Origin: an uncultured bacterium
GTDB lineage: Bacteria > Bacteroidota > Bacteroidia > Bacteroidales > Bacteroidaceae
Assembly (NCBI GenBank): GCA_905216095.1
Contig: CAJMSQ010000008.1
Span: 11,775-75,774, forward strand
Length of the DNA: 64,000 nt
Direction of reading: 5' to 3'
A model generated the notes under the pieces. The model did no database searches. It was not told the DNA's origin and saw nothing but the letters and a program-made list of their open reading frames with translations. Positions 4,146 through 63,854 of this stretch are shown here, in pieces. The stretch's first letter is position 1. Each line of letters opens with the position of its first letter. The position numbers and the translations under genes are program-made.

Positions 4146-4393
4146 TTAACACAATTTGCTTTCGGGCCGAAAATGTATTATCTTTGCAGTGCTAAAGTGC
4201 GGGGACGGTGTGAAACCGTCCCTTTTTTCGTGCTCGAAGGCCCGTTTCAGGGAGATACTGTCCCTGTGACGGGATTTTTTAGATGCCTTGTAGTTTTTCG
4301 CAGAAGCCATGTAGGCATTTCCGGCCCTGCATGTAGGCAAAACTACAAGGCATGTACGTTGTCCGGAATGTGCATGAAAGTTAAAAATGTTAA
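4146..4393 (+). repeat. 247-nt repeat family, copy 1
   Basis: The element runs from TTAACA (4146-4151) to TGTTAA (4388-4393), 248 nt. It contains a promoter (TTTG 4155-4158, 20 nt, TATCTTTG 4179-4186), a terminator hairpin (GGGACGGT 4202-4209, ACCGTCCC 4215-4222, then T6), and a 15-bp perfect inverted repeat (4283-4297 with 4339-4353). Inside that repeat the motif CATGTAGGC occurs twice. It matches copies at 19281, 43713, 51775 and 63608. Confidence 0.85.
4191..4228 (+). ncRNA. Predicted ~38-nt promoter-terminator RNA in repeat copy 1
   Basis: Transcription from the promoter at 4155-4186 should start near 4191-4193 and reach a strong hairpin with a U6 tract ending at 4228. The product would be almost only the hairpin plus a ~10-nt 5' tail. 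The same arrangement occurs in all five repeat copies. Its existence as an RNA is inference. Confidence 0.45.
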
Positions 4394-4551
4394 TGTCGGA
4401 CACGGGGCTTTGTGTGGATGTCGGGATGGACAAACAGGGGCCGCTCGGATCGGTTCGGGGCAGATGCTTTCTTTTGTCCGGTAAATGGATTTTTAAGTCC
4501 GTTTGCGTAAATTTTTATAAAAATATAACAATTGGTGAATAGGTGAAAAGA

Positions 4552-4588
4552 TGCACAAAATGTTATATTTTGTGCAATGGGGGGGGGG
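4552..4588. repeat. 10-bp inverted repeat next to a G10 tract upstream of the fimbria operon
   Basis: TGCACAAAAT (4552-4561) and ATTTTGTGCA (4567-4576) flank a 5-nt loop. Two bases later a run of ten G residues begins (4579-4588). The tract lies about 105 nt upstream of the fimbria promoter -33 box, and homopolymers of this length are prone to slippage. Confidence 0.6.
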
Positions 4589-4692
4589 TAATTTTTAACA
4601 TTTTGGAAGACAAAATGAAATTTTTGAGCCTTTTGTTATCTTCTTGATATATAGATAATCCCTGTTTTTAGGATGAAAAAGTAAAGAAAAAG

Positions 4693-4724
4693 TTTGGCTG
4701 AGGTGTCAAAGTGTCGTACATTTG
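4693..4724 (+). promoter_or_regulatory. Fimbria operon promoter
   Basis: TTTG (4693-4696), exactly 20 nt, and TACATTTG (4717-4724) give a full-consensus promoter. The expected start near 4730 leaves a ~150-nt untranslated leader before the first gene. Confidence 0.8.
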
Positions 4725-4880
4725 TATTTTATATATGACCGGAAGGTTTATATAGGTGAGTGAAAAAATGTAAAAAGTGACAAAACGGAAGAATGCCGGG
4801 AGCGGCTGTTCCGGATGCTCCTTTTCGTGGGCAACTTTTGACAATGTAGTACAAGCCTGTGGCTTCAGTTGTTAAAGTAG

Positions 4881-5486
4881 ATGAAAGATAATAGCGATTT
4901 GCAGATAACTGCATTTGCATGGCAGAGGCGCGTTTTCTTCTGGCTGTTTCTGTCCTGCCTGTTTCTGTCCGTCCGCGCCCAGCAGGTGGCTTTGAAGACC
5001 AACCTGCTGTACGATGCGACCCTGACACCCAATCTCGGTGTCGAGTTGGGCGTGTCCCGTCGCGGTACGGTGCAGCTGTTTTACGGTTTCAACCCCTGGA
5101 AGTTTTCGGAGACGAAGCAGACGCGCCACTGGGTGCTGATGCCCGAGTACCGTTTCTGGACCTGTCAGCGGTTCAACGGTCACTTTTTCGGTGTTCACGC
5201 CATGGGCGGCCAGTTCAACGTGGCCGGTGTCAAGTTGCCCTTCGGTCTGTTCGACGAACTGCGGGACCGCCGCTACGAGGGCCGTTTCATCGGTGGCGGC
5301 GTCACCTACGGCTATCAGTGGATACTGTCCCGCCACTGGAACTTCGAGGCCTCGGTGGGCGTGGGCTACGACTACATTAAATATAAAGAGTTCGGCTGCG
5401 GCACTTGCGGCCCGAAACACGCGGACAGGCACCGCCACTATTTCGGTCCCACAAAGGCTGCGCTCAGTCTGTCCTATATCTTTTGA
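4881..5486 (+). CDS. DUF3575 outer-membrane protein of the fimbria operon
   Basis: The protein is 201 residues. A hydrophobic segment (FFWLFLSCLFLSVRAQ, about residues 19-34) serves as signal peptide and leads into VALKTNLLYDATLTPNLGVELG, the usual start of DUF3575 proteins. The rest is rich in alternating aromatic strands and ends in LSLSYIF, as expected of a small outer-membrane beta-barrel. DUF3575 genes commonly open Bacteroidales Mfa-type fimbria operons, next to DUF3868. The exact role is not established; assembly or anchoring at the outer membrane is likely. It is first in the operon, 150 nt from the promoter, and the next gene begins 21 nt after its stop. Confidence 0.82.
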   Translation: MKDNSDLQITAFAWQRRVFFWLFLSCLFLSVRAQQVALKTNLLYDATLTPNLGVELGVSRRGTVQLFYGFNPWKFSETKQTRHWVLMPEYRFWTCQRFNGHFFGVHAMGGQFNVAGVKLPFGLFDELRDRRYEGRFIGGGVTYGYQWILSRHWNFEASVGVGYDYIKYKEFGCGTCGPKHADRHRHYFGPTKAALSLSYIF

Positions 5487-5507
5487 CCTTTCAAACTACC
5501 GGAGATT

Positions 5508-6959
5508 ATGAGAACCCATATCCGCCACACCTTATTATATATAATGTGCGCCGTCCTGCTGACGATGGCCGCCATGCCGCATACCCTCCGTGCCCAGGAA
5601 GCCGTCCGGACGTCCGGCGGGCTTGTGCTGAACAATGTGACCGCCGAACGTGCCGGCGACTTCCTGCTTGTGGGCATGGACCTGTGTTTCGATGGCGTCG
5701 ATGTGCCGTCCAACCGCATGTTGGCCTATAGTCCCGTCGTGCGGGGCCGCAACGGCGAGTCCGTGGTGCTGCCTGCCGTGCTGCTCACAGGGCGCCGCCA
5801 GCACTATGTCTATCTGCGCGAGGGCAGTGCCGCCTATCCCGACGCCCGCGAGGTGCGCCGCGATAACGGTCGTCCGCAGACCGAACATTACACCCACAGC
5901 ATACCGTTCGAACAGTGGATGGCTCACGCCACCGTAAGCCTCATCGAGGATTCGTGCGGCTGCGGGCTCAGCCTCGCTTCGCGCGTGGACGACGTGCTGC
6001 GCCTGCACGGCCGGCCGCGTACCCCCGTATGCGCCTACATCGTCCCCGTTCCGGCCGAGGTGAAAGCCTATGCCATAGAGGGCCGGGCCTATCTTGACTT
6101 CCCTGTGAACCGCACCGAGATTCATCCCGACTATCGCCGCAATCCGCAGGAGCTGCTCAAGATTGTGGAAAGCATCGACCGCGTGCGCAATGACAGCAAT
6201 GCCGTCATCAAGGCCGTAGCCATTCACGGCTATGCCTCGCCCGAGGGTACGTATGCCAACAACGAGCGGCTCTCGAAAGGCCGTGCCGCCGCGCTGCGCG
6301 ACTATGTGAGCAACCTTTACCGCTTCGGCGACGACGTCAGGTTCAGCATAGACAATACGCCCGAGGACTGGGCGGGGCTGGACAGCCTGGTGGCGCGGAG
6401 CAACCTCGGCATGAAGGACGAACTGCTGGCGCTCATCCGCTCCGGCATGGAACCTGACGAACGGGAGGAGGAGATAAAGCGGCGCTGGCCCGAGGCCTAC
6501 CGCTTCATGCTCGGTACGTGGTATCCCGCGTTGCGGCGCTCCGACTACACTGTCAGCTACGAGGTGAAACCTTTTACCACACCCGAGAGCGCGAAACGCA
6601 TCTATCTGGAAAAACCGGAACAGTTGTCGCTCAACGAACTCTATATGGTGGCCGGCACGTACCCGACGGGCAGCGACTCGTGGGCCGGCGTGTTCGAGAC
6701 GGCGGTGCGGCTCTATCCCGACAGCCCGACGGCCAACCTCAACGTGGCCAACGTGGCCATCGCCAACAACGACCTTGACACCGCCGAACGCCATCTGGCG
6801 CTGGCCGGACAGACACCGCAGGCCGTCCACGCCCGGGGCATCGTGGCCCTGTTGCGCGGAGACTACGCCGAGGCGCGCCGACTGCTCGAGGAGGCCCGCG
6901 GGGCGGGAGTGCCCGAGGCCGAAGAAAACCTTCGCATCCTCGGGGAAGTGGAGGACTGA
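5508..6959 (+). CDS. DUF3868 / OmpA-like protein with TPR-like C-terminus
   Basis: The protein is 483 residues with a signal peptide at 1-29 (ending TLRAQ). Residues 30-150 match the DUF3868 pattern (GGLVLNNVTAERAGDFLLVGMDL). An OmpA-type segment follows at about 215-270, with AIHGYASPEGTYANNERLSKGRA, which normally contacts peptidoglycan. The C-terminus (about 395-475) has helical repeats of TPR character (ANNDLDTAERHLALAG, GDYAEARRLLEEA). The family always sits beside DUF3575 and fimbrillin genes, and a periplasmic scaffold for fimbria export or anchoring is a reasonable inference. The major subunit gene follows after 110 nt. Confidence 0.83.
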   Translation: MRTHIRHTLLYIMCAVLLTMAAMPHTLRAQEAVRTSGGLVLNNVTAERAGDFLLVGMDLCFDGVDVPSNRMLAYSPVVRGRNGESVVLPAVLLTGRRQHYVYLREGSAAYPDAREVRRDNGRPQTEHYTHSIPFEQWMAHATVSLIEDSCGCGLSLASRVDDVLRLHGRPRTPVCAYIVPVPAEVKAYAIEGRAYLDFPVNRTEIHPDYRRNPQELLKIVESIDRVRNDSNAVIKAVAIHGYASPEGTYANNERLSKGRAAALRDYVSNLYRFGDDVRFSIDNTPEDWAGLDSLVARSNLGMKDELLALIRSGMEPDEREEEIKRRWPEAYRFMLGTWYPALRRSDYTVSYEVKPFTTPESAKRIYLEKPEQLSLNELYMVAGTYPTGSDSWAGVFETAVRLYPDSPTANLNVANVAIANNDLDTAERHLALAGQTPQAVHARGIVALLRGDYAEARRLLEEARGAGVPEAEENLRILGEVED

Positions 6960-7069
6960 CCGGGAACAACCGCATCCGTGCGTGCATCCGCGTTTCCGCA
7001 CCGGGAACGTCGTCACGGCGGACACGGGAAAACGAAATAAAATTTATTCACCCAATAATTCTTTTAAGT

Positions 7070-8767
7070 ATGAAAAAAACAAGAATGTTAGTATGGGGAC
7101 TCGCCACGCTGCTGCTGGGCGCATGTTCCTCCGACGACCTTGTCACTGACGACGGGGGAGGCAAGGGTAACGGACAGGAAGGCAAAGCCTTGGTTGCGAT
7201 GAAAATCTCCATACCGGTATCCGGCGCCGGCATGGCCGGTCGTGCCGATTCGTATGTGGACGGCGAAAGTTATGAGTTTGCCGTGAAAAACATGTCGGTA
7301 CTGATTTTCGACAAGAATACCAAGAAGCTGGAGCGCATCTATTCCACACTCGACAATTCCTTGGCCGAGCCTTCGTGGACCACGGATGCTTCCAACGCGC
7401 AAATAACGCAGACGGCTAAACTTCCGGCCTGCGCGGTGGAGAACACCCAGCCGAAGGATTTGTTCATTGTCCTCAACAGCAGGAACATCGAAGCTTTGAA
7501 AGGTATCGTGGCCGAGGAAGACGTGGAAAACTATGTCCTGACCGACGATGCAGCCTTGTATGCTTCGAAGGAAGCAACCGGTACCGGTTTTCTGATGTGC
7601 AATGCCGCTTTGTGGAAATCGGGGACCGGTGGCGGCGTGCAGACTTTTGTTTCGGTGGAACCGCAAGAGACCAGAGAGGCCGCCGAGGATGAAAGTCATC
7701 GTGCGAACATCTATGTGGAGCGTCTGGTGGGCAAGGTTTCCCTGACACATGCTAACACGGGTGCGTGGAACGCTTGGAAGTACACCGTGCCTGAGGATGG
7801 TTCTTCCGCGTCGGCCGGTGCGGAGATTACCATGCTGGACTACATACTCGACGTGACCAACAAGAGCAGTTACCTGTTGCACCGTGTTGATGAGGCGGCA
7901 GGTTGGTTCACCGATACCTATAAGTATAAGAACGATCAGAACAGGTTCTACGGTCCGGCTCCCATAGAGGACGACCTGTACCGCATCAATTACGCCGTAG
8001 ACCCCAATTACGATAAGTTTGCTACCTCCGATTTCACGGTAAACTCTACATTCCCCGAGACAGGTGTAGGGCTTGCCAACCCTTCCTATTGTTATGAGAA
8101 TACGTTCGACGTGAAGAATCAGCGTCGTAACCGCACCACGCGCGTCCTGCTCAAGGCCAACTTCAAACCGAAAGGCTTTAGTGAGAATGAGACCTGGTTT
8201 ACCATCGGTCCTTCCGACGTACCTCTTCATGCTGAAGCGGCAAAGACACGTATAGAGAACGCCGTGAAGGCCCTCGCAGATGTAGGCGAGGATGCGACTA
8301 TTACCGTGGACATTGCTAAAATGTCCGGTGAAAACGATTTCGACGATAATGTGAAAATCGACGGTGTGAATCTTTCGGACACCCAAAAGACTGCTTTGCA
8401 GACCGCTCTCGGCGATGTAAAGGCCTACAAGAACGGCATTTGCTACTATGTGGTACGCGTGAAACATTTCGGCGACGCTGAAACGCCCTGGGGTAGTGAC
8501 GATGCACCTGGAATAGGCTCTCCCGAGACCAAATATTGGGCCTATGGCAGCGAGCGCCCCGATGAAAACGAGAACAAATACTATCTGGGCCGTTATGGCA
8601 TCGTCCGCAACAACTGGTATGAGCTGAGCCTGAACAAGGTCAGCGCACCCGGTTCGTGCCAGGTGCTCACACTGGAAAGCACCATCGACGATGAGCACAA
8701 CTATTATATAGATGCTTCCGTGAAGATCCTTTCCTGGAAAAAGCGCAAGCAGGATGTGAACCTCTGA
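7070..8767 (+). CDS. Mfa1-like major fimbrial subunit (lipoprotein precursor)
   Basis: The protein is 565 residues. The lipobox LLLGAC places the lipidated cysteine at 19. After a Gly/Asp-rich linker, VAMKISIPVSGAGMAGRADS leads into FAVKNMSVLIFDKNTKKLERI, the usual N-terminal strands of FimA/Mfa1 fimbrillins. In Porphyromonas the subunit is cut after an arginine in this loop to free a donor strand; R58 (GR/AD) is a candidate here. The C-terminus GIVRNNWYELSLNKVSAPG through VKILSWKKRKQDVNL is the Mfa1-family end that donates the polymerising strand. It is followed by a terminator-like hairpin that should keep its transcript above that of the anchor gene. Confidence 0.85.
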   Translation: MKKTRMLVWGLATLLLGACSSDDLVTDDGGGKGNGQEGKALVAMKISIPVSGAGMAGRADSYVDGESYEFAVKNMSVLIFDKNTKKLERIYSTLDNSLAEPSWTTDASNAQITQTAKLPACAVENTQPKDLFIVLNSRNIEALKGIVAEEDVENYVLTDDAALYASKEATGTGFLMCNAALWKSGTGGGVQTFVSVEPQETREAAEDESHRANIYVERLVGKVSLTHANTGAWNAWKYTVPEDGSSASAGAEITMLDYILDVTNKSSYLLHRVDEAAGWFTDTYKYKNDQNRFYGPAPIEDDLYRINYAVDPNYDKFATSDFTVNSTFPETGVGLANPSYCYENTFDVKNQRRNRTTRVLLKANFKPKGFSENETWFTIGPSDVPLHAEAAKTRIENAVKALADVGEDATITVDIAKMSGENDFDDNVKIDGVNLSDTQKTALQTALGDVKAYKNGICYYVVRVKHFGDAETPWGSDDAPGIGSPETKYWAYGSERPDENENKYYLGRYGIVRNNWYELSLNKVSAPGSCQVLTLESTIDDEHNYYIDASVKILSWKKRKQDVNL

Positions 8768-8794
8768 AACATTGGACGGAAATTCCGGAACCGT

Positions 8795-8852
8795 CCCGGC
8801 GTACCTGCTCCGTGCAGGCCGCCGGGCGTACCGGACGTCCCGTCCGGATTTT
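8795..8852 (+). terminator. Partial terminator/attenuator between Mfa1- and Mfa2-like genes
   Basis: A branched hairpin (CCCGGCG 8795-8801 with CGCCGGG 8820-8826, enclosing CCTGC/GCAGG) is followed by CCGGACG (8831-8837), a TCC loop, CGTCCGG (8841-8847) and ATTTTG. Downstream genes lack an obvious new promoter, so read-through is presumably incomplete. That would give much more subunit than anchor. Confidence 0.65.
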
Positions 8853-8894
8853 GACCACTTGAAAACGTAACTTAAAAAGTATATCCGAATTCGT

Positions 8895-13110: not shown

Positions 13111-16100
13111 ATGATGAACAGGCTTTCATGCTATCTGATACGTATGACCGGTTGCCTGGCCCTACTTCTGCTCGGCATTTCCGGTCCTGTTTCTGCCGCA
13201 CCTACTTATCCGACGTATTCCACCGAGGCCAATCCCGTGTATTACGGCATCAAGTTTACGAAAGCCGGCCTCTTCCTGAAATATAGGGGCGACGAAGGAA
13301 ACAGCCGCAGGGTGGTAGTTTCCGATATATTTGCTTCCAACAGCGTTTTCTTCTTGCCGGATAAGAACCAATATGTAGCGACAAGTTTCACGGAGTCGAA
13401 GAAAGACAGTTGTTGCTGGGCATTCATTGACTATAACACCAGGAATTCCACCTTCCTGGTGATGACGAAGCCGATGGGACCTGACGGGGAGGTGGAATAT
13501 CTGACCGTGACAAACGGCAGGTTTGCTACGACGAAAAGCCAGTCCGGCGCATCCCGTATGAAGTTTGTGGCTTACGGCAATTCGTTGCAGCTGCAACGCT
13601 CCGGACAAAGTTCCTATATGAACCAGTGGGGCGCGAGCACGGAAGGAGTGGAACTGGGAGAGTGGACCGGTAACGGCGACGCCAACAACCTGTTCGTCGT
13701 TGTAAACGAGGCTGGCATGGTTCCTCCCGATTATTCCGACCTTGTGGATTTGTCTTCCTCGACGGTCGCCGTCAAGCATAAGGACTCCTATTATTTCACA
13801 CGCATAGACAATGACCCGTCTCTGGAGGCCGCTGCGCGCGAGAACGGTTTCCTGTCGGACGCTAATCCTCGTCGCGTTACGGAACACAATTATCAGAACG
13901 TGAATGTCCGGGATCGTGAAATCTATGTGAAGCCCGGTGAGACCGTCCGGCTGTTGATGCCAAACTATATGGGCGGCAACGATTCCCGAAGCAACGTGTA
14001 CCAGCGCTGGTATGACTATGAAACGGACGGTTCCATCAGCGGAGCGGCCATTAACTTCGACGGTGTGGCAAAGAAACTGATTGCCCAGCGGAACGGCATC
14101 GTGTTGGGAGCCGATTTGTCCGGTACAGCCTGTGGCAAGTGGGCGAATTTCTACATGCCGGAGGGGGAAAAGGACACGTATGTGGTGGCCTGTGACATGT
14201 CCCGCTATTCCGATTTCACGAAAGCGTCCGTCGGGAACGGCATAGATACCGAACCGACGTTGGACGCCCGTGCCATTTACCGCATCCGCGATGCCCGCAT
14301 CATGGCCGACAGTCTTGAGTTGCTCCGGGTGCAGAACAAGTGGCTGGAGGACGAGGAAATCCATTTCCCCGCCCGTGTCAATTGCCGCCTCTTCGACCAG
14401 ACGCTGCCGTTGAAGCTGGACGGCAGAAACTATTACGTGTATCAGTTCGACGAAATTGTACATCTGACGCCGAAAATCACGCTGGAAGACCCCAACGGAC
14501 TGGGCATAGAACTGGTAAGTACTACCTTGGCCGACGATTCCCACCTGATTCGATGGCACTATCCCGCCCTGAACGGAAATTCCGTCATAGGGCAGATAAG
14601 GAATGCCACCGACACGGAAGAGGATTACGTTATCATCAAGGTGACCATACAAGGGAAAGACCGAAAAAACTATAACATCGCGCGCTACAAGGTCTGTTTT
14701 GAAGCTTCCACCGAGCCGCGTCCCATCAGCGTGACCCTGGGTAACCGGGCGTCTTCACGCACCCCCGAATACTATCGCCGCGTGGCAGGCGAGCCCGAAC
14801 AGCAGAGAAATTATGACTTTGCGCCGGTCAGCTATTCCGCCCCGAGCGGCAACCGGCAGACAGCCAACTCGTATGGTCTGCCTATGCCCTATGCCAACAT
14901 TTCGTACGGCTTCTCGTCCATTCTGAGCGAAACAAAATTTGACGGTAGCGATACATCCTGGGGAGAGTATGCCGTCGTGAAAAAGATGAAAGCCGAATGG
15001 AGCGAAGCGGGACATCGGACAGTATTCAAGGATATATCCACACTCTATTACGACTGGTACAAGGAAAACGGAACGGATGAGGAGAAAGCGATTTATTGCA
15101 AGGAGGACAAAGAGGCCACACCCGGCTATTTCGCCTACATAGATGCTTCGGAACGTCCCGGTACCATCGCGACCATTCCGCTGAGCAAGAACCTGTGCGT
15201 CGGTTCCAAGATATATGTGTCGGCCTGGCTGGGCAGTGGTGCCGCCTGCTACAAGGGAAATGTCTCGCAAGGTGCCGCGGGGATAGACACGGACAGGGCC
15301 CCGGCCAGCATATCCTTCAAGCTGGTCGGCTACAAGGGCGAGGAATCCACTACGGTCTACTCGTTCTGCCCCGGCCAGATTTCGGGTTTCTGGGTGGAGA
15401 ACGTGAACGGAACCGACGTGTACCATTCCCCCGGCGACGACGAGCCGGGTGTGTGGAAGCATGTGGCTTTTTCGCTGACGGTGCGCGATTCTTATGACCG
15501 TTTCCAACTGTTGTTGCTGAACAACTGTATGAGTTCGAACGGTGGAGATATTCTGCTGGACGACGTTGCCATATACACCATCAGCCCCGTCATAGACATG
15601 GAAGAGATTGCCCCGGTCTGCGACGGCAACGTACAGTTCTTCAAGATTGCGGCAGAGTTCGAAAGTGTCATCTCCTCCATGGGTCGGGACGAGGCACTCA
15701 CGACAGAGGACAGCGATTACAGCAAGTTCGACTGCTATTATTGCTTTATCGACAAAGAAATGTTCGACAAGAACTTCCTGAACCCCGACGGCAGCCGTCC
15801 TGTCTATACGCAGGAAGACCATGCCCGTTACGACGAATATTTCAGCAAGCTGGTCATCGGGGACGTAAACGCACCTGTGGGCGATCCCACGTCGGCTTTC
15901 CACCTGTTCCACATGTCCAACGTCTATAAGGATAGGGAAGAGTTCTCGTTGAAGAAGGCCATGACCGCCAAAGAGGAGGACTGCTTCTGGGAAGATGTGG
16001 TGGACGAGCAGGGCGAACTGGAGAGACGGAACGTCATCTTTACATCCCAGCTCATCAGTGACCGGATAAAGGCGAACAAGAACTATTACATCATTTTCCG

Positions 16101-19100
16101 GCCCGAATATGTTGTCAATGGAAACGGGGTGGTGGCGCACGATGACTACATCCCGCCAAGCGTGTTCTTCAATATGCTGGACGACTGCGTCGTGAAGGAC
16201 GAATTCCCCCTGCATCCGTCCCTGGTCACCAAGGTGGACGGCGAAATCATCCGCAGCGACTCGATTTCCTATTGCACGGGAAGCGTTCCGGTCATCAAAC
16301 TGACGTCCTACGGCTTCGGGGAATCGGGCATCATCGTGCACGAAGACGACAAGTACGACTGGTATATCGGCCCGATGGAGGAACTGAGAGACATCAAGGT
16401 GACGGAAAACGGTACGGACTACGACATGGTCAGGGTGCTGAAGAACTTCCGGCACTACTATCCTGACCTGAAGTCGGCCGAAGGCGTCGCGCCCCGGACC
16501 GAAGAAGAGCTTTTCCTTTTCACGGAAGCCATGCGCGACAAAATAGTCGAGCTGAGTGCGCCGCCTGCCGGCGGTGGCGAGCCCAGGTTAATCCTTTACC
16601 ACAACGCCATCAACTATGCCATCGGGCCGGAAAAGGGCGAGGAGTACCGCCTGGTGGCTGTCCCCTGCGAGGATGAGGAGATGTCCGAGGACAATACGGA
16701 ACTGTTCTGTTACGAGCCGAAGGAGTTCATCATACTGGCCCGGACCGACTCGCCCGAAGGCCTGACCGGCGTGCCCGGTTCGCGCTATCCCGCCGGTTTC
16801 GGTTCCGCCCCGTTGCGCGTGAGCCTCAGCCAGATTGCCGAAATGACCGTCTCGGGCGGCCATACCCTGACCATTCCGTTCCGCTTCCTGCACGGCAGCA
16901 ATGACGAGGTGCATGGCTTTCGTGTGGGCGACGACCCGAACGTTTATGTAACCGAGACGAACGACAGCTCATATCCCCTGTACGTACACGACGACATCGA
17001 AAACGAAGACTTTCTGAACCCCATCGGAACGTTCAGGAGCCTTGTGGCCGAGATTGGCGACGGTGCGCAGAGCGCGGACAACCATGCCGTGATTCAGTTT
17101 GACGACAGTTTCGCGCCGAAAGAAGGGCATACCTATACGTTGCGCCTGTCCTATCACGAAGTGTCGGACAATGCCGAAAACTCGGGCTGCGGCGGGCATT
17201 TCCTTTTCGACCTGAAAATCGTTCCCGACTATCTGGTCTGGACCGGCGATGCCGGCAACAGCGACTGGAACAACGACCGAAACTGGCGCCGGGCCGACAG
17301 GACGGACCTGCTTGCCGCGGGAGACAGCTATAAAGACTACCCCGCCAATGCGGACAACTATCCGGACAAGGACGGCATCCCCTCGGACAGGCCCTGTTTC
17401 GCCCCTCTCTATACGTCGTCCGTCATCGTGCCCGCAGGTCTTGACCGCTATCCCGTGCTGACCACCCGCTATGCGCCCGCCACGGAGGCCGACCTGGACC
17501 CCGATAATCCGCAGCCCGACACCGAAACGGCGGACATACGCTATGACATGACGGCGGACCGCGTGGACGACAAGGGACAGCCCTCGGCCGAATACCGCGG
17601 CGTGACCTACTATGCCAACCGCTGCGAGAACGTACACTTCGGTCCGGGCGGGCAGATGCTCAACACCGAATTGCTGGACTACGGGAAAGCGTGGGTGGAA
17701 TACGAACTGAACTTCAACCGCTGGTACACGCTCGGCACTCCGTTGCAGGACATGTACTCCGGCGACTGGTATGCGCCGGCCGACGGCGCACGGCAGGACA
17801 CGCCCTGCTTTGAAAGCATCGTCTGGGATGCCGGCCGCTACGACCGCTTCGGGCCTGCCGTCTATCAGCAGGGGTGGGACAAGACGCAGGCCAACGTCTA
17901 CCGCCTGGAGAGCAGCACGCACGTGAACTTCGGTCCCAGCCCGTGGAACGTGGCTGTCATGGCCGACTGGAGCAACGTGTACAACGATGTGGCCGTGGCC
18001 TATGACCTCAATGCCTTCTCCGTCAAGGTAGTGCCCCTGAAAGCCACCCATGCCGGACCGGCCGCCCTCTTCCGCTTCCCCAAGGCTGACACGGGCTATT
18101 CCTATTATACGTATGACAAGGAGAACCCGGAGCCGGAACTGACGCCCGTCCCGCGCACCGCGTCCTACCGGCTCTACACCGACCTGCTGAAGGCCGGCCG
18201 CGACGGCTCGTTCGGACAAACGCTCAGGAACGAGGCGGCCGACAACAACTACTTCCTTGTGGGCAACCCGTTTGTCAGCGGTATGGACATGAATGCGTTC
18301 TTCGATGCCAACACCGACCTCGAACGGAAATACTACATCGTGGCCGACGACACGCAGACGGCTTACGTGAAAGACGACGACTCGGAAAACTGGGTGGGCA
18401 GCGACGGAACGCTGTCGCAACCGCGGGTCGCACCGTTGCAGGGCTTCTTTGTGAAGAAAAAAGCCACGGCTTCGGGCGCGGCCAACGAGCTGCAGGTTGA
18501 ATTCAATGCCGGAATGGCCGTGCTCACAGGCGGGGACACCCCCTTGCTTGTCCGGCCGAAACGGAGTGGCGCGGTTGCCCGCAAGTCCGTCGCGGGACTG
18601 GTGATAACGGCCCGCCGCGACGGTGAGACCGGAAGCGCGCTGCTGGTGTGCTCGCCCGAGGCCGCCGACGGATATGTGCCCGACGAGGAAGTCGAACTGC
18701 TCCTGGACGGACACCTTCATGCCGGTCCCAACCGCGTGCCTGCCGTCTACACCGTGGCCGACGGCCGTGCCATGAGCATCAACCGCGTGCGCGGCATCGG
18801 CTGCATAGGCATCGGCGTGGCCGGCGCGGACTGCGGCGACGTGACGCTCGGGTTTGACGGCGTGGAAAACCTGCCCGACGAGGTTTCCCTGTACGACGCA
18901 CAGACCGGAACGGCAGTTCCGCTCCGTTCGGGGATGGAAATAGAGGTTTCGGGCAACTCCGCCGGCCGTTATTACCTGATGGGCACGTCGGTATCGCCCG
19001 ATTCGGACACCGCCGCGGTGACAGTCAGCGTGACGGGCCGTGAAGTCACGGTCAAGGCCGCGGCCGGCGACCGTCTGAGCCGTGTGCGCGTCTTCGATGC

Positions 19101-19230
19101 TGGCGGCCGCAGCGTCTACCTGAGCCATCCCGATGCGGACACCCATATCTTCCGTCTGGAAAAAGGCGTTTACGTCATCGAGACCGTGACGGAAAACAGC
19201 TGCATTGCGACAAAAGTATTGGTCGGGTAG
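13111..19230 (+). CDS. Giant secreted adhesin-like protein with T9SS-type C-terminal domain
   Basis: The protein is 2039 residues. The signal peptide (CLALLLLGISGPVSAA) ends near residue 30. The body is a chain of beta-rich modules of no family I can name. About residues 700-830 look like a jelly-roll (DRFQLLLLNNCMSSNGGDILLDDVAIY). Near 1377 the motif WTGDAGNSDWNNDRNW begins a region typical of large Bacteroidetes surface proteins, and around 1713 NYFLVGNPFVSGMD introduces the C-terminal part. The last ~75 residues (RVRVFDAGGRSVY...LEKGVYVIETV...ATKVLVG) match the type A T9SS sorting domain. It is last in the fimbria operon, the position of mfa5 in Porphyromonas, whose product is a T9SS-exported tip adhesin. 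A tip-adhesin role is inferred by position; no VWA MIDAS motif is obvious. Confidence 0.78.
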   Translation: MMNRLSCYLIRMTGCLALLLLGISGPVSAAPTYPTYSTEANPVYYGIKFTKAGLFLKYRGDEGNSRRVVVSDIFASNSVFFLPDKNQYVATSFTESKKDSCCWAFIDYNTRNSTFLVMTKPMGPDGEVEYLTVTNGRFATTKSQSGASRMKFVAYGNSLQLQRSGQSSYMNQWGASTEGVELGEWTGNGDANNLFVVVNEAGMVPPDYSDLVDLSSSTVAVKHKDSYYFTRIDNDPSLEAAARENGFLSDANPRRVTEHNYQNVNVRDREIYVKPGETVRLLMPNYMGGNDSRSNVYQRWYDYETDGSISGAAINFDGVAKKLIAQRNGIVLGADLSGTACGKWANFYMPEGEKDTYVVACDMSRYSDFTKASVGNGIDTEPTLDARAIYRIRDARIMADSLELLRVQNKWLEDEEIHFPARVNCRLFDQTLPLKLDGRNYYVYQFDEIVHLTPKITLEDPNGLGIELVSTTLADDSHLIRWHYPALNGNSVIGQIRNATDTEEDYVIIKVTIQGKDRKNYNIARYKVCFEASTEPRPISVTLGNRASSRTPEYYRRVAGEPEQQRNYDFAPVSYSAPSGNRQTANSYGLPMPYANISYGFSSILSETKFDGSDTSWGEYAVVKKMKAEWSEAGHRTVFKDISTLYYDWYKENGTDEEKAIYCKEDKEATPGYFAYIDASERPGTIATIPLSKNLCVGSKIYVSAWLGSGAACYKGNVSQGAAGIDTDRAPASISFKLVGYKGEESTTVYSFCPGQISGFWVENVNGTDVYHSPGDDEPGVWKHVAFSLTVRDSYDRFQLLLLNNCMSSNGGDILLDDVAIYTISPVIDMEEIAPVCDGNVQFFKIAAEFESVISSMGRDEALTTEDSDYSKFDCYYCFIDKEMFDKNFLNPDGSRPVYTQEDHARYDEYFSKLVIGDVNAPVGDPTSAFHLFHMSNVYKDREEFSLKKAMTAKEEDCFWEDVVDEQGELERRNVIFTSQLISDRIKANKNYYIIFRPEYVVNGNGVVAHDDYIPPSVFFNMLDDCVVKDEFPLHPSLVTKVDGEIIRSDSISYCTGSVPVIKLTSYGFGESGIIVHEDDKYDWYIGPMEELRDIKVTENGTDYDMVRVLKNFRHYYPDLKSAEGVAPRTEEELFLFTEAMRDKIVELSAPPAGGGEPRLILYHNAINYAIGPEKGEEYRLVAVPCEDEEMSEDNTELFCYEPKEFIILARTDSPEGLTGVPGSRYPAGFGSAPLRVSLSQIAEMTVSGGHTLTIPFRFLHGSNDEVHGFRVGDDPNVYVTETNDSSYPLYVHDDIENEDFLNPIGTFRSLVAEIGDGAQSADNHAVIQFDDSFAPKEGHTYTLRLSYHEVSDNAENSGCGGHFLFDLKIVPDYLVWTGDAGNSDWNNDRNWRRADRTDLLAAGDSYKDYPANADNYPDKDGIPSDRPCFAPLYTSSVIVPAGLDRYPVLTTRYAPATEADLDPDNPQPDTETADIRYDMTADRVDDKGQPSAEYRGVTYYANRCENVHFGPGGQMLNTELLDYGKAWVEYELNFNRWYTLGTPLQDMYSGDWYAPADGARQDTPCFESIVWDAGRYDRFGPAVYQQGWDKTQANVYRLESSTHVNFGPSPWNVAVMADWSNVYNDVAVAYDLNAFSVKVVPLKATHAGPAALFRFPKADTGYSYYTYDKENPEPELTPVPRTASYRLYTDLLKAGRDGSFGQTLRNEAADNNYFLVGNPFVSGMDMNAFFDANTDLERKYYIVADDTQTAYVKDDDSENWVGSDGTLSQPRVAPLQGFFVKKKATASGAANELQVEFNAGMAVLTGGDTPLLVRPKRSGAVARKSVAGLVITARRDGETGSALLVCSPEAADGYVPDEEVELLLDGHLHAGPNRVPAVYTVADGRAMSINRVRGIGCIGIGVAGADCGDVTLGFDGVENLPDEVSLYDAQTGTAVPLRSGMEIEVSGNSAGRYYLMGTSVSPDSDTAAVTVSVTGREVTVKAAAGDRLSRVRVFDAGGRSVYLSHPDADTHIFRLEKGVYVIETVTENSCIATKVLVG

Positions 19231-19280
19231 GGGAAACCGGTGTCGGCATCTTGCTTCCGGTTTTCCTGCCGCCGGCGATT

Positions 19281-19527
19281 TTAACACAATTTGCTTTCGG
19301 GCGGAAAATGTATTATCTTTGCATAGCGAAAGTGCGGGGACGGCGTGAAACCGTCCCTTTTTCGTGCCCGAAGGTCTGTTTCAGGGAGAAACAGTTCCTA
19401 TGACGGGACATTTTAGATGCCTTGTAGTTTTTCGCAGAAGTCATGTAGTCGTTTCCGCCCCTGCATGTAGGAAAAACTACAAGCCATGTACGCCGCGCCA
19501 AAAGTGTAGAAAGGTTAAAAATGTTAA
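19281..19527 (+). repeat. 247-nt repeat family, copy 2
   Basis: The element runs from TTAACA (19281-19286) to TGTTAA (19522-19527), 247 nt. It has TTTG (19290-19293), 20 nt, TATCTTTG (19314-19321), and the hairpin GGGACGG (19337-19343) with CCGTCCC (19351-19357) and T5. It is the closest relative of copy 1, differing by one T in the terminator tract. It begins 50 nt after the adhesin stop, so copies 1 and 2 bracket the fimbria operon in direct orientation. Confidence 0.85.
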
Positions 19528-19713
19528 TGTCCGGTTTTCCTTCACGCCGTTTTCCTCCGCATCGGTCGGCCGCTTATTGCCCCGATATTCCCGGCCGGAT
19601 GATTTCACGTGTACGCATCGCGGGAAATACGCGCGCATGTCCTTCATGAAGATAAGAATGTGAGTTTGGGCAATAAACAGGTTATAAGAATGGGCAATCT
19701 CGTAAATATTTTG

Positions 19714-19721
19714 TAACTTTG
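19714..19721 (+). promoter_or_regulatory. -7 element of the two-gene membrane module
   Basis: TAACTTTG at 19714-19721 is a good -7 box 29 nt before the first ATG. No clear TTTG lies 19-21 nt upstream. Confidence 0.45.
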
Positions 19722-19750
19722 TACTCCTAACACCGATTGGGATACCAATC

Positions 19751-20167
19751 ATGTCATTATTTGAGAGAATGAATAGGATTAATATGATATATGTGCTCTT
19801 TTGGGGTGGAATTTCCTTTATTTCATCCTTTATGGGAGTATTGGACGGAGATTGGAATAAACTTGTCGCGGGTGATTTGCTCCATGATATATTTAATCCG
19901 TTATTCGTTTGGATAATTGCCTTCTTCGGGGAATACTTGTACATAGTTTTCTCCTTGAACAAGAAAACTCAAATATTGGACGAAAGATGGACCAAGGTGT
20001 CGTATGTTCTGGTTGAACTCCTTTTCATCGTTCTTCTGTTGAGCATTCACGTTACCGGTAACTATGGCAGGATGATTTGTGTGGTTGCCTTGTATCTGTG
20101 CATGATGGGATTGAAAACCTCTTCATTATATGCTTTGTGTCCTCGTCAGAAGATAAAATCAATCTGA
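19751..20167 (+). CDS. Small four-helix membrane protein, unknown
   Basis: The protein is 138 residues with four predicted membrane segments at about 10-30, 47-70, 83-101 and 107-127, and short polar loops (DGDWNKL, NKKTQILDERWTK). I do not recognise the family. It has no signal peptide separate from helix 1 and no catalytic motif. Base composition is visibly more A+T-rich than the fimbria genes, suggesting a different history. It is followed after 15 nt by a second membrane-anchored gene on the same strand, and the pair ends at a single terminator, so they form a two-gene unit. Confidence 0.65.
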   Translation: MSLFERMNRINMIYVLFWGGISFISSFMGVLDGDWNKLVAGDLLHDIFNPLFVWIIAFFGEYLYIVFSLNKKTQILDERWTKVSYVLVELLFIVLLLSIHVTGNYGRMICVVALYLCMMGLKTSSLYALCPRQKIKSI

Positions 20168-43712: not shown

Positions 43713-43961
43713 TTAACATTTTTAACTTTTACGGGTGCGAAAGGTGCGCGTTCCCCGCTCTTGTTTTTCGCTACATGCAGGGGTAGAATCGCCTACATGG
43801 CATCTGCGGAAAACTACAAGTCATCTAAAAAATCCCGTCACAGGGACAGTTTCTCCCTGAAACGGGCTTACGGGCACGAAAAAAGGGACGGTTTCACACC
43901 GTCCCCGCACTTCAGCAATGCAAATATACTACATTTTTCCGCCAAAAGCAAATTGTGTTAA
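43713..43961 (-). repeat. 247-nt repeat family, copy 3 (minus orientation)
   Basis: The element is 249 nt. Read on the minus strand it has TTAACA (43956-43961), TTTG (43949-43952), 20 nt, TATATTTG (43921-43928), the GGGGACGG/CCGTCCC hairpin with T6, and ends in TGTTAA (43713-43718). The right arm of the large inner inverted repeat is degenerate. The copy lies between a terminator and the 3' end of the porin gene. Confidence 0.83.
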
Positions 43962-44015
43962 AATGCCAGGCCGCTCCGGCGGCGGGATAATGCACTTATC
44001 GGCAAGTATGTCCGG

Positions 44016-49700: not shown

Positions 49701-49704
49701 GTCG

Positions 49705-51694: not shown

Positions 51695-51774
51695 GCCGGA
51701 AAGGCCCGACGACATCCGGCAGGCGGATACTTGCGAAAATGTCAAGTAACGCGGTCTGCGGGACGGTCGTTGTT

Positions 51775-52021
51775 TTAACACAATTTGCTTTTGGCGGAAA
51801 AATATAGTATATTTGTATGACAGAAGCAGGGGACGGATTCTTCCGTCCCCTTTTTTGTGTCTGCAGGCCGGGTTTTCCGTGTTTTTTGTCCGCGGGAAAG
51901 GTTTTCGCAGATGGCATGTAGTGTGTTTTACATGCCATGTAGTATTTTTCAGCCCCGTCCTGTGTTCCGGAAAGTGGCTTTTGCCACGTCGTTCCCGCGC
52001 GTCGGAAGTTAAAAATGTTAA
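51775..52021 (+). repeat. 247-nt repeat family, copy 4
   Basis: The element is 247 nt from TTAACA (51775-51780) to TGTTAA (52016-52021). TTTG (51784-51787), 20 nt and TATATTTG (51808-51815) are followed by GGGGACGGA (51829-51837) paired with TCCGTCCCC (51842-51850) and T6. The middle has diverged strongly from copies 1-3 but keeps CATGTAGT words, and the total length is unchanged. Confidence 0.8.
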
Positions 52022-58196: not shown

Positions 58197-58223
58197 GACA
58201 CTCCATGCTTGACGCAGACTGAC

Positions 58224-59020: not shown

Positions 59021-59120
59021 ATGAAAAACGAATTGGTTCGCAGGGGTTGAGTAAACGTGTCCGGCAAGGACGTTGAAGAACTGACATGCAGCCACTCAAG
59101 AACAAAATTCAAAATAAAAA

Positions 59121-59597: not shown

Positions 59598-59615
59598 TAA
59601 AGGAGGATTTACGAA

Positions 59616-61736
59616 ATGGCAAAGAACGATTTACATTTAACTCGTAATATCGGTATCATGGCTCACATCGATGCCGGTAAGACTACGACGTCTGAACGTA
59701 TCCTCTTCTATACGGGTAAGACCCATAAAATCGGTGAAGTGCACGATGGTGGCGCTACCATGGACTGGATGGCCCAGGAGCAGGAGCGCGGTATTACCAT
59801 TACTTCCGCCGCTACCACCACTTTCTGGAACTGGCAGGACAAGCAGTTCAAGATTAACCTGATTGACACCCCGGGACACGTGGACTTCACGGCCGAAGTG
59901 GAGCGCTCGTTGCGCGTCCTTGACGGTGCCGTGGCTACGTACTGCGCCGTAGGTGGCGTTGAACCGCAGTCTGAAACCGTATGGCGTCAGGCCGACAAGT
60001 ATAACGTACCCCGTATCGGATATGTAAACAAGATGGACCGCTCGGGTGCGGACTTCTTCGAGGTGGTACGCCAGATGAAGGATGTGCTTGGCGCAAATCC
60101 TTGCCCCATCGCAATACCTATCGGTGCCGAGGAAAAATTCAAGGGAATCGTAGACCTCATCAAAATGAAAGCCATTCTGTGGCATGACGAGACGATGGGT
60201 GCCGAGTACGACGTGGAGGATATTCCCGCCGACCTGCAGGCCGAGGCCGAGGAATGGCGTCAGAAGATGCTTGAAGCGGCTGCCGAGTGCGACGATACCT
60301 TGATGGAGAAATTCTTTGAAGACCCTGACTCGCTTACCGAAGAAGAAATAGTTGCTGCTATCCGTAAGGGTACGCTCTCTATGGACATTGTGCCGATGAC
60401 TTGTGGTTCTTCTTTCAAGAACAAAGGTGTGCAGACGTTGCTGGACTACGTATGTATGTTCCTCCCGTCGCCTCTGGATACGCCCAATATCGTGGGTACG
60501 AACCCCGAGACCGGCGAGGAAGAAGACCGTAAGCCGAGCGAGGACGAGAAGACTTCCGCACTTGCGTTCAAGATTGCCACCGACCCGTATGTAGGTCGTC
60601 TGACATTCTTCCGCGTATATTCCGGTAAGGTGGATGCAGGTTCTTACATCTACAATGTACGTTCGGGCAAGAAGGAACGCGTATCCCGTCTGTTCCAGAT
60701 GCACTCCAACCATCAGAACCCCGTAGACCGCATCGGCGCAGGTGACATCGGCGCAGGTGTCGGTTTCAAGGATATCCGTACCGGTGACACGCTCTCCGAC
60801 GAGGATGCACCTATCGTACTTGAATCCATGGACTTCCCCGATCCCGTTATCGGTATCGCCGTTGAGCCCAAGACTCAGAAGGACCTCGACAAGTTGTCGA
60901 ACGGTTTGGCCAAGTTGGCCGAAGAAGACCCGACCTTTACGGTTCGTACCGACGAGCAGAGCGGTCAGACCGTCATTTCCGGTATGGGTGAGCTTCACCT
61001 CGACATTATCATCGACCGTCTGAAGCGCGAGTTCAAGGTGGAATGTAACCAAGGTAAGCCTCAGGTGAACTATAAGGAAGCCATCACCAAGACTGTGAAC
61101 CTCCGTGAGGTATATAAGAAGCAGTCCGGTGGTCGTGGTAAGTTTGCCGACATCATCGTGAACGTCGGTCCTGTAGACGAAGACTTCAAGGAAGGTGGTC
61201 TGCAGTTCATCAACAAGGTGACCGGCGGTAACATCCCCAAGGAATTCATTCCTTCCGTACAGAAAGGTTTTGAAAACGCCATCAAGAGCGGTGTGCTCGG
61301 CGGTTATCCGCTCGACAGCCTGAAGGTTGAGTTGCTCGACGGTTCTTTCCACCCCGTGGACTCCGACCAGTTGTCGTTCGAAATCGCCGCATTGCAGGCT
61401 TACAAGAACGCTTGCGCACAGGCAGGTCCCTGTCTGATGGAGCCGATCATGAAGCTGGAAGTCGTTACGCCCGAAGAAAACATGGGTGACGTTATCGGCG
61501 ACTTGAACAAGCGTCGTGGTCAGGTTGAAGGTATGGAGAGCAGCCGTAGCGGTGCCCGTATTGTGAAGGCTTTGGTTCCTCTGGCCGAAATGTTCGGTTA
61601 TGTTACGGCTCTGCGTACCATCACTTCGGGTCGCGCAACCTCTTCCATGCAGTACGACCACCACGCTCCCGTATCCAACTCCATAGCCAAGGCTGTGCTT
61701 GAGGAAGTGAAGGGACGCGTAGACCTCATTAAGTAA
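59616..61736 (+). CDS. fusA: Elongation factor G
   Basis: The protein is 706 residues. The P-loop [30 protein letters not shown] and [11 protein letters not shown] give the G domain. Domain IV has [28 protein letters not shown], and domain V ends before [16 protein letters not shown]. It is a complete translocase. A good AAAGGAGG-type Shine-Dalgarno precedes the ATG. The gene lies between rpsG and rpsJ as in other Bacteroidales. Confidence 0.98.
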
Positions 61737-61772
61737 GAACATCCTATCAAACAATCAATGCCGTCCGGGCGG

Positions 61773-61798
61773 CGGGCTAACGAATGACTCTTAGCCCG
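61773..61798 (+). other. Hairpin in the fusA-rpsJ gap
   Basis: CGGGCTAA (61773-61780) and TTAGCCCG (61791-61798) form a perfect 8-bp stem with a 10-nt loop, 32 nt before rpsJ. There is no U-tract, so it is more likely a leader structure than a terminator. Confidence 0.5.
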
Positions 61799-61830
61799 TC
61801 CATCCCCCGGCCGGAAACAAACAAAACAAC

Positions 61831-62136
61831 ATGAGTCAGAAAATCAGAATCAAACTGAAAAGTTACGATCACACGCTCGTAGAAAAGTCTGCCGAGAAGA
61901 TCGTCAAGAACGTGAAGGCTACCGGTGCCATTGTCAGCGGCCCGATACCCCTTCCCACGCGCAAGCGCATCATTACCGTGAACCGCAGTACGTTCGTAAA
62001 CAAGAAGTCCCGCGAACAGTTCGAGATTTCTTCTTACAAGCGCCTCATCGACATCTACAGCTCTACGGCCAAGACCGTGGACGCGCTGATGAAGCTGGAA
62101 CTTCCCTGTGGTGTGGAAGTGGAAATCAAGGTGTAG
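61831..62136 (+). CDS. rpsJ: 30S ribosomal protein S10 (NusE)
   Basis: The protein is 101 residues: [25 protein letters not shown], then [29 protein letters not shown], ending [12 protein letters not shown]10 is part of the 30S head and also a NusB partner. In most bacteria rplC follows as the second gene of the S10 operon. Here a strong terminator begins 27 nt after the stop and an unrelated gene on the other strand follows, so the operon is cut at this point. Confidence 0.98.
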
Positions 62137-62163
62137 TCCTCATTTCTGAAGAAATAGAAAATC

Positions 62164-62204
62164 ATCCTCTGCTGTGTCCTTGGGCATGGCAGAGGATTTT
62201 TTTT
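62164..62204 (+). terminator. Terminator directly after rpsJ
   Basis: ATCCTCTGC (62164-62172) and GCAGAGGAT (62189-62197) pair perfectly and run into a T8 tract. It ends the str transcript at rpsJ. Confidence 0.9.
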
Positions 62205-62231
62205 GTTCCGGCCTTATGGTATGAAACCGGA

Positions 62232-62275
62232 ACGCAACCGTCCGGAGCGGATATACCCGTTCCGGACGGTTGCGT
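62232..62275. terminator. Hairpin at the 3' side of the hydrolase gene
   Basis: ACGCAACCGTCCGGA (62232-62246) and its exact complement at 62261-62275 form a 15-bp stem with GG/CC inside. It lies 63 nt beyond the minus-strand stop at 62338 and has no T-tract. Confidence 0.55.
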
Positions 62276-62337
62276 ATTGCTTTATCACCGGTGGTCGTTC
62301 CTGTGATTTCGGGCAAAATGCCCGGTCGTACCTTTTC

Positions 62338-63423
62338 TTATTGGTCACCGGAGTCCGTTTGCCCTATCTGTACGGTTTCAATCGGCTGGACCGGCGAAGA
62401 ATCCAGCGGATGCGACTGATAGGCCACCCTTCCGAAGTCGATGCCCCCGAGGTCTATGCAGCGGATACTCCGGTTGTAGGCGGTGTGGTAGTATATTTTC
62501 CCGTGTGTCAGGTCGATGGCCGATGTCCACTGCGTGGCGCTCGGTATGTCCGGGGCTTTCCCCATCGGATGCTCGCTGCCGATGGGTACATTGAAGTTGT
62601 CCAGCAGGTGGAAACATTGCATGACCGGCTCGAAAGCCGTAGCCCGCTGCGGAGCGGTCGCCCTGTAGAAAGCGGCCCTGACGAAGCGGGAGGGCGGGGT
62701 GGCGTCGCCCGGCAGTCCCAGCAAGCCTGAACCGGCACCCAACGGCCGCAATGCGACACCGCCCATCCGCATACCCTGTGCGTCGCCCGGTTGCAGGTTG
62801 ATGTAGTTCTTGAGGTTCGTCAGGTGCCATTCGAATCCCGGCGCGTTGGTCAGCACACCCACCGTGTTTTCGTAGAACCTCGGTGTGCCGTTCACGATTT
62901 CCAGCACGACCTGCCGCCCGGATTTATCCCCGATGCGCCAGTGTACGGTGGACTCGGGCACAAGACCGGCGACGCGGACCTGTCCGAAACCGGCCATCAC
63001 CTCGTCCACCGTGGCAAAACTGCATAACATCCATTGCACCACCTGCAGGTCGGCGAGCGAATGTTCCCGATGTCGCTCGTCAAAGGGCAGATAGCCGCCG
63101 TAGCCCGGAAAGAAGAAAAGCCCGGCCGACAGTCCGACCTCGTTGATGCCCTCCGCCATGAATTCCGGTCTGACCACCGACATCCCGGCCACGCCGTAGC
63201 GGGCGGTGAACATCTTTCCGCCCTTCCCGTCGGCTGTCAGCGAGGTGAAGGACTGTCCGCGCGGAATAATCACATACCGGCTCTCCAATGCGCTCTGTGC
63301 CCATTCTATGGTGCGGGCCTGCACATAGCTGCTGTCGGCCGCAAACAGCGAGATGCCTGTGCAGGCCGGGGAAAATTGTACGCTGCCGCATACGGCGGCC
63401 GCCAAGAGGAAAAGTTTTTTCAT
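62338..63423 (-). CDS. Choloylglycine hydrolase / linear amide C-N hydrolase family protein
   Basis: The protein is 361 residues. The signal peptide (MKKLFLLAAAVCGSVQFSPA) ends right before C21, which would become the N-terminal nucleophile, as Ntn hydrolases require. Aligned to bile salt hydrolase C2/R18/D21/N175/R228 the residues are C21, R37, E40 (Glu for Asp), N193 in VLTNAPGFEWHL and R249 in SRFVRAAF. Other family segments are EGINEVGLSAGLFFFPGYGGY and GLPGDATPPSRF. It may hydrolyse conjugated bile salts or other N-acyl amides such as penicillin V or acyl-homoserine lactones; the substrate is not decided by sequence. A -7 box TATTTTTG lies at complement 63453-63460. It follows rpsJ tail to tail. 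Confidence 0.85.
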   Translation of the reverse strand: MKKLFLLAAAVCGSVQFSPACTGISLFAADSSYVQARTIEWAQSALESRYVIIPRGQSFTSLTADGKGGKMFTARYGVAGMSVVRPEFMAEGINEVGLSAGLFFFPGYGGYLPFDERHREHSLADLQVVQWMLCSFATVDEVMAGFGQVRVAGLVPESTVHWRIGDKSGRQVVLEIVNGTPRFYENTVGVLTNAPGFEWHLTNLKNYINLQPGDAQGMRMGGVALRPLGAGSGLLGLPGDATPPSRFVRAAFYRATAPQRATAFEPVMQCFHLLDNFNVPIGSEHPMGKAPDIPSATQWTSAIDLTHGKIYYHTAYNRSIRCIDLGGIDFGRVAYQSHPLDSSPVQPIETVQIGQTDSGDQ

Positions 63424-63607
63424 AAGCTGATATAGTTGGTTCTGTACGATGGCAAAAATAAGGAATAAATCCCGGCGCTCCTTCCCCTCACGCTCTAAAT
63501 TACCTTAATGCAGGATTAAAAGAAGTTATCCCGGCATGTGCCGCAATGCCGTCCCCGGACAAGGTTTGAACCGGCATCAGTGAGGTCTTTCTCCGTCAGT
63601 CGGAATT
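63424..63607. other. Intergenic region upstream of the hydrolase gene
   Basis: Apart from the hydrolase -7 box (63453-63460, minus strand) I see no gene, hairpin with a T-tract or repeat before copy 5 begins. Confidence 0.5.
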
Positions 63608-63854
63608 TTAACACAATTTGCTTTTGGCCGAAAAATGTATTATCTTTGTACTACGGAAGAGCGAAGGACGGCGGATGCCGCCCTTTTTCGTAGGGTACGG
63701 GCCTGTTCTCGGGGCAAACTATCCCTATGACAGGAAAAAGCGGATGCCTTGTAGTTTTTCCTACATGCCATATAGTTTTTCTTTTCTCCGTTCAAGAAAG
63801 GAAAAAGCCGCGGGTCAGGCCGCGCCAAATGTATTCGAAAGTTAAAAATGTTAA
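63608..63854 (+). repeat. 247-nt repeat family, copy 5
   Basis: The element is 247 nt from TTAACA (63608-63613) to TGTTAA (63849-63854). TTTG (63617-63620), 20 nt and TATCTTTG (63641-63648) are followed by a changed hairpin (GGCGG, ATG, CCGCC) that still runs into T5. The inner region has GATGCCTTGTAGTTTTTCCT and CATATAGTTTTTC. From 63855 to the window end I see no supported gene. Confidence 0.8.

Follow-up and report, generated by a model that had tools for sequence, protein, structure and literature searches.

REP repeats are extragenic, are present in more than 100 copies, contain palindromic pieces and serve as targets of insertion sequence (IS) elements. Correia elements of Neisseria are short, dispersed, promoter-carrying intergenic repeats with long terminal inverted repeats and TA duplications. 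The present work concerns another family of dispersed repeats, with an element of approximately 250 nt that is found five times in a 64,000-nt stretch of DNA from an uncultured bacterium of the Bacteroidaceae (assembly GCA_905216095.1, contig CAJMSQ010000008.1, positions 11,775–75,774; termed the window).

Two described repeats are of special interest for comparison. PINSR of Prevotella intermedia is a 188-bp intergenic sequence judged to be non-coding, of which two genomes carry 177 and 184 copies; it was found in four species, and no terminal inverted repeats are reported for it (PMC4755523). BrickBuilt of Porphyromonas gingivalis is present in 19 copies of 84–991 nt, has up to 22.8 bricks of 23 nt, and is bounded by IS5-type 12-bp ends, GAGACCTTTGCA (PMC4596501). 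A search for dispersed repeats in Prevotella, in a literature that left most subscription journals uncovered, gave nothing nearer than PINSR and BrickBuilt among the matches listed; with the same coverage, the name PINSR was met in one Prevotella paper.

Copies of the window family have a fixed layout: a Bacteroidetes-type promoter motif, a terminator-like hairpin within about 40 nt, a tandem array and an AT-rich tail. The copy number, the placement, the compensatory changes in the hairpin stem, a period close to 21 nt and array words that are private to genomes suggest dispersed, apparently non-coding, mostly intergenic Prevotella-type repeats, which would terminate their own transcription and would be homogenised within a genome. 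As read from sequence, this explanation has about an even chance of being correct.

Repeat copies in the window

The copies are at positions 4144–4393 (copy 1, plus strand, 250 nt), 19279–19527 (copy 2, plus, 249 nt), 43713–43963 (copy 3, minus, 251 nt), 51773–52021 (copy 4, plus, 249 nt) and 63606–63854 (copy 5, plus, 249 nt), as defined by box searches, end-to-end alignment and a covariance model (termed R3, see below). The earlier note had reported five repeats of 247–249 nt, and all five were found where it placed them. Its right ends are correct, but the true start is two bases further left (TTTTAACA), and the lengths are therefore 249–251 nt. The 6-bp ends TTAACA...TGTTAA and the near-invariant termini that it described are present, with the left box TTAACACAATTTGC and the right box GTTAAAAATGTTAA (in copy 1 the tail box at positions 4380–4393, plus strand, from the right-box search) perfect in all five copies. 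The alignment also displays the diverged middle of copies 4 and 5. The “large inverted repeat” of that note is part of the 21-nt array.

The left box gives five matches in the window, all perfect, and still five when up to two mismatches are allowed (0.45 expected); none of 100 shuffled windows reached five. The right box gives seven matches at up to two mismatches (0.27 expected), and the five perfect ones are the copies. The copies can be aligned over their full length and the flanks cannot. Model R3, whose training set includes the window copies among others, scores all five at 68–75 bits, with the next-best window match at 20.6 bits. An inverted repeat, GGGACGCGATTCATCGCGTCC / GGACGCGATGAATCGCGTCCC, adjoins copy 1 on the left (window positions 4018–4110).

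Occurrence in Prevotella sp. MGM2 and related genomes

A scan of an 84,980-species collection with one exact left pattern yielded ten stretches, of which eight are from Prevotella sp. MGM2 (G001). The other two, from Paludibacter and a Neomarinimicrobiota metagenome-assembled genome, have no right box within 400 nt. The window and MGM2 show 81% DNA identity over 11.4 kb that includes rpoB–rpoC, and the source of the window is thus taken to be a congener of MGM2. MGM2 displays 120 left boxes at up to two mismatches versus three for a reversed control; many dispersed copies, which the earlier note had named as support for its element, are therefore present outside the window. The sharp boundaries shared by the copies were likewise confirmed beyond the window, by the MGM2 copies and a comparison of flanks.

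In 653 kb of MGM2 there are 52 left boxes, 42 paired with a right box and 10 cut by a stretch end. The same 653 kb have 70 right boxes at up to two mismatches, of which 28 are unpaired; some of these are in copies whose left end is altered or absent, and others are chance-like. An enlarged sample of 903 kb gave 65 full copies (53 of 257–264 nt, six of 281–283 nt and six others) and 19 unpaired left boxes, 16 of them cut by a stretch end and three not. Because the MGM2 stretches were picked for holding copies, no density can be derived from them. Many MGM2 matches sit at contig ends, i.e. the family accompanies broken assemblies.

In 60 further genomes near MGM2, the left box of MGM2 and the window (up to one mismatch) occurs at most five times, which is close to the reversed control. 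Covariance models reached further. Model R1, made from 70 copies (65 from MGM2 and five from the window), found matches in 8 of 58 genomes of the genus. Model R3, made from 48 copies of nine sources (G001, G032, G018, G030, G002, G067, G004, G071 and the window), found matches in 14 of the 58, ten with 17–74 matches and four with one, and none in 44. When up to 150 candidates per genome were scored, the R3 counts were 86 in G018, 73 in G237, 28 in G032, 26 each in G030 and G071, 25 in G080, 20 in G070, 19 each in G002 and G004, 17 in G067 and one in G201. Genomes G237, G080, G070 and G201 are finds independent of the R3 training. The matches were read individually in part (e.g. 10 of 73 in G237, 6 of 25 in G080 and 3 of 20 in G070).

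A draw from the whole family, with ten candidates scored per genome, showed R3 matches in 29 of 399 genomes; six genomes have at least eight matches, and the remainder, with three or fewer, may represent chance. In the one-contig genome G237, 400 kb that were partly chosen around known copies gave 18 matches at E < 0.001, and 400 kb of the non-carrier G005 gave no match at E < 0.1.

In G032, conservation continues outside the boxes (e.g. copies at L173, L174 and L180). In 23 of 24 G032 copies the left box is preceded, at a distance of about 26 nt, by the sequence TTTTCCAC(A/G)CC, which resembles a DnaA box.

Leader sequence

The leader carries a predicted promoter, represented in copy 1 (plus strand) by a −33 TTTG at positions 4155–4158, read from the sequence, and a −7 box, TATCTTTG, at positions 4179–4186, identified from the sequence and the copy collection. 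TTTG and TAnnTTTG are given as the −33 and −7 motifs of sigma-ABfr (PMC7366714). The −7 box is at offset 35 from the left end in copy 1 and in 68 of the 70 copies used for model R1, which were collected by requiring such a −7 motif within a 32-nt range.

A terminator-like hairpin followed by a T run is at positions 4201–4223 of copy 1 (plus strand; from covariation and fold energy), and its counterpart in copy 2 is at positions 19336–19357 (plus strand; read from the sequence, with fold energy). The hairpin folds at −8 kcal/mol or better in 64 of 65 MGM2 copies. Covariation in the stem, proposed earlier as a check, is above that of shuffles in both alignments. In the 70-copy alignment of a 14-pair stem, 98 cells are changed on both sides versus 45.6 ± 5.5 when shuffled and at most 59 when slid. 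The number of pairs changed on both sides in this alignment is not unusual (12 versus 10.3, with 77 of 500 shuffles at least as high). In the 48-copy alignment (window and eight genomes), which was fitted to the covariance model and is biased towards that model, an 8-pair stem shows 93 such cells versus 21.8 ± 7.6 shuffled and at most 28 slid.

The leader thus has the appearance of a housekeeping-type promoter with its own stop, both of which are predictions. The promoter would yield a transcript of about 40 nt that ends at the hairpin, and since transcription would stop there, a copy could adjoin a gene without driving transcription into it.

Mean pairwise identity in 45 copies of 261–262 nt is 0.90 in the left box, 0.45 in the spacer at positions 88–118, 0.74 in the array and 0.82 in the tail. 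Spacers of fixed length but low conservation separate the conserved blocks, a pattern more in keeping with old copies that are constrained or homogenised than with a fresh burst.

The tandem array

The 21-nt array of copy 1 is at positions 4283–4357 (plus strand) and consists of the words CTTGTAG and CATGTAG together with inverted CTACAAG. The array of copy 2 is at positions 19417–19491 (plus), that of copy 3 at 43765–43822 (minus), that of copy 4, with two CATGTAG words, at 51910–51945 (plus), and that of copy 5, which is degenerate, at 63743–63772 (plus).

When the five window copies are pooled, lag 21 is best (z = 5.8), the stretch behind each leader having been chosen by the analyst in this and the other lag tests. 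Lag 21 is also best in MGM2, G032, G018, G030, G002, G004, G080, G070 and G201 (one copy only in G201), that is, in 9 of 11 genomes besides the window. A blind lag scan of MGM2 gave 13 loci at lag 21 and no more than two at each of the other lags in the range 16–28. The same scan of the 64-kb window gave a single locus for each of the lags 21, 25 and 27, thus it does not favour 21 there. The non-carrier G005 gave 21 loci at lag 18, nine at 27, three at 24 and one at 21, and these are presumed to be coding repeats; in G237, the loci at lags 21 and 22 include repeats of other kinds. A stepping of copy length by 21 was considered and rejected: lengths of 241, 262 and 281–283 fit, but 236, 246, 247, 257, 258 and 269 do not.

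The array words are private to genomes to a large extent. Measured as the fraction of copy pairs that have a GC-bearing 9-mer in common, word sharing is 0.67–1.00 within a genome and 0.20 or less between genomes, except for G080–G070 (1.00), G002–G067 (0.83), G018–G002 (0.62) and G030–G070 (0.42). A possible process is recombination or gene conversion among the copies of a genome, which would keep them alike, together with occasional copying to new intergenic places; the array would change between species and the leader would stay constant. The family offers a direct test of concerted evolution in bacteria: its transcription module is constant, and the attached array is uniform within each genome but differs from genome to genome.

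Leaderless 21-nt arrays with the same words, in tens of copies, are present in G002 (e.g. L213:9645–9717 and 19682–19768) and there are many in G067. Genome G237 has 22-nt arrays with GTGCA words at L313:14784 and L323:19162, where no leader match is listed; these are perhaps a second array type.

The array may alternatively be a nucleoprotein site, where a DNA-binding protein reads the array every two helical turns and a shift in its specificity drags along all words of a species. A period of 21–22 that is common to lineages while the words differ is consistent with this, as are the occurrence of words in both orientations and the leaderless arrays of G002, G067 and perhaps G237. However, the postulated protein is hypothetical, gene conversion alone could homogenise the words, and a period divisible by three, which would not close reading frames, could point to former coding repeats, and the explanation is considered unlikely. 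Equally doubtful is a lineage-wide class of chromosomal sites that would combine a conserved promoter-plus-stop leader with an array phased to two helical turns, in which each species would rewrite the words of all its copies at once. In bacteria, such sites would correspond to fast-evolving satellites whose DNA-binding protein evolves along with them.

Position relative to genes

In MGM2, 63 of 65 copies are without an overlap of more than 90 nt with an open reading frame of at least 110 codons, and such open reading frames fill 85% of the sequence. Nine open reading frames near the window copies were compared with Pfam. The matches are tyrosine recombinase, TPR/DUF3868, porin O/P, DUF3467, methyltransferase and choloylglycine hydrolase; three of the nine have no Pfam match. 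One of these three is an open reading frame of 2039 codons at window positions 13111–19230, directly upstream of copy 2 (no match at E 0.001). A location beside accessory genes, suggested earlier for the window copies, does not hold as a rule, as one MGM2 copy is about 350 nt behind a match to rpoC.

Several results weigh against the explanation of mostly intergenic, homogenised and self-terminating repeats. With a looser caller (80 codons, more than 60 nt), 10 of 42 MGM2 copies overlap an open reading frame. In G237, 12 of 18 copies are free but 6 of 18 overlap, five with open reading frames of 117–136 codons and one with a 408-codon frame near a stretch end. Gene pairs at copies are co-directional in 36 cases, divergent in 14 and convergent in seven, a weak divergent lean when compared to gaps without a copy (154, 27 and 39, respectively; p = 0.057). 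The best lag in G237 is 22, with 21 third, and in G067 (three copies) it is 42, followed by 21. G018 and G002, and also G030 and G070, share words though they are not known sisters. Finally, an intact promoter motif and hairpin in almost all copies would be equally well explained if every copy were a functional element of the host.

If the copies are host-owned, each would be a small-RNA gene or a transcription insulator, and its product would be the hairpin RNA or the stop signal. This is rather unlikely. The compensatory changes and the retention of promoter motif and hairpin by almost all copies argue for it, and in some genomes the arrays fold more stably than their shuffles (mean z of −5.8 for eight copies of G080/G070 and −3.7 for 15 copies of G018). 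In MGM2, however, the advantage of arrays over shuffles is slight (mean z = −1.6), and among the five window copies three are at z −2.0 or weaker. The preference for convergent gene pairs that a stop signal should have is absent, and the distribution is patchy, with 44 of the 58 genus genomes lacking a match. An Rfam search at gathering score gave tRNAs only in the window, with nothing at the copies, and no match at eight loci of relatives.

The explanation of homogenised intergenic repeats is preferred. The family may work like REP/BIME or PINSR, as tolerated and perhaps useful intergenic DNA rather than an autonomous mobile element.

Target sites and mobility

The 6-bp termini were originally likened to those of a miniature inverted-repeat transposable element (MITE), which would be moved in trans by a transposase acting on the ends TTAACA...TGTTAA. 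The sharp ends, the high copy number and the inverted 6-bp ends common to window and MGM2 copies point in this direction, and relatives differ in the sites that are occupied: the window has no counterpart of the MGM2 copy behind rpoC, in which the MGM2 contig ends. However, a pooled statistical test of 60 copies with flanks (five from the window), not made copy by copy, revealed no target-site duplication, no flank-position pair being above |z| 3. By eye, there is no terminal repeat common to the species; the inverted ends are seen in the window and MGM2 copies, and the ends differ in G018, G080 and G237. A Y1 transposase does not track the family. It is found in 6 of 11 carriers and in 6 of 14 non-carriers (hand-picked from 44) and not in MGM2, DDE transposases being left out of this comparison; the Y1 transposase was therefore rejected as mobiliser. 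A blastn search of plasmid and phage records with copy 2 only (E 1) gave no match, and the exact left pattern was not found in viral contigs. With no duplication, no common terminal repeat, no plasmid or phage match of copy 2 and no link with the Y1 transposase, a MITE is not supported and is decidedly unlikely. The broader proposal of a structured or mobile element fares better, in that dispersed copies, stem covariation and sharp boundaries agree with it.

Individual sites were compared between relatives. At window copy 4, the orthologous MGM2 genes have no copy between them and 2 kb of other DNA instead; a contig-cut copy begins beyond the second gene. In G002 and G067 (90–96% identical over the compared stretch) both compared copies differ, one being absent and one having a single flank. 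No clean empty site was found in the window–MGM2 and G002–G067 comparisons, where flanks are altered or cut by contig ends. One copy is in the same place in G080 and G070 with different tails; the two genomes are 96% identical there over 861 nt, of which about 217 nt are within the element. In P. intermedia, approximately three quarters of the PINSR regions are common to two strains (PMC4755523). Taken together, the shared G080/G070 place, the differing sites and the sharing of PINSR regions suggest a slow turnover of copy places.

Inversion by recombination between two copies was considered for G002/G067 and rejected, since the breakpoints are beside the copies and not inside them. Synteny breakpoints adjoin copies between closely related genomes (L213; G067 C35/C12). 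An IS-like sequence with the end GGGTCAAGCCGAAA is inside copies at at least 6 of the 17 places where it was found in the fetched MGM2 stretches (L067, L074, L078, L091, L124 and L135, near stretch ends).

Comparison with described repeats

The family is a hazard for the annotation of small RNAs and of small open reading frames. A repeat described as group-specific in one Prevotella group may be one face of a multi-species family.

The elements resemble Correia elements in being short, dispersed and intergenic with a promoter, but the long terminal inverted repeats and TA duplications of the latter are not seen here. REP/BIME repeats with TnpA-REP, the subject of two earlier papers (PMC2817692, PMC1525189), are among the closest known systems. 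The likeness is in the more than 100 extragenic copies, the palindromic pieces and the IS-like end inside at least six MGM2 copies; the difference is in the unit, which is about 250 nt here with a promoter motif and hairpin, and in the Y1 transposase, which does not track the family.

PINSR is the nearest published repeat, compared by description only. Like PINSR, the family is intergenic with more than 100 copies in a Prevotella lineage, as shown by MGM2 with its 120 left boxes and 63 of 65 copies clear of open reading frames of at least 110 codons. PINSR differs in its length of 188 bp, and a promoter, hairpin or 21-bp array is not mentioned in the available part of its description (PMC4755523).

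BrickBuilt shares the order of leader, tandem bricks and tail, the intergenic location and the promoter elements, and belongs to the same bacterial order. Copies of the present family are more numerous and nearly constant in length, and the ends in the window and MGM2 are TTTTAACA...TGTTAA and not the IS5-type GAGACCTTTGCA. Bricks are present but with a period of 21 nt (22 in G237) instead of 23 nt; thus the family has the same plan as BrickBuilt with another brick length.

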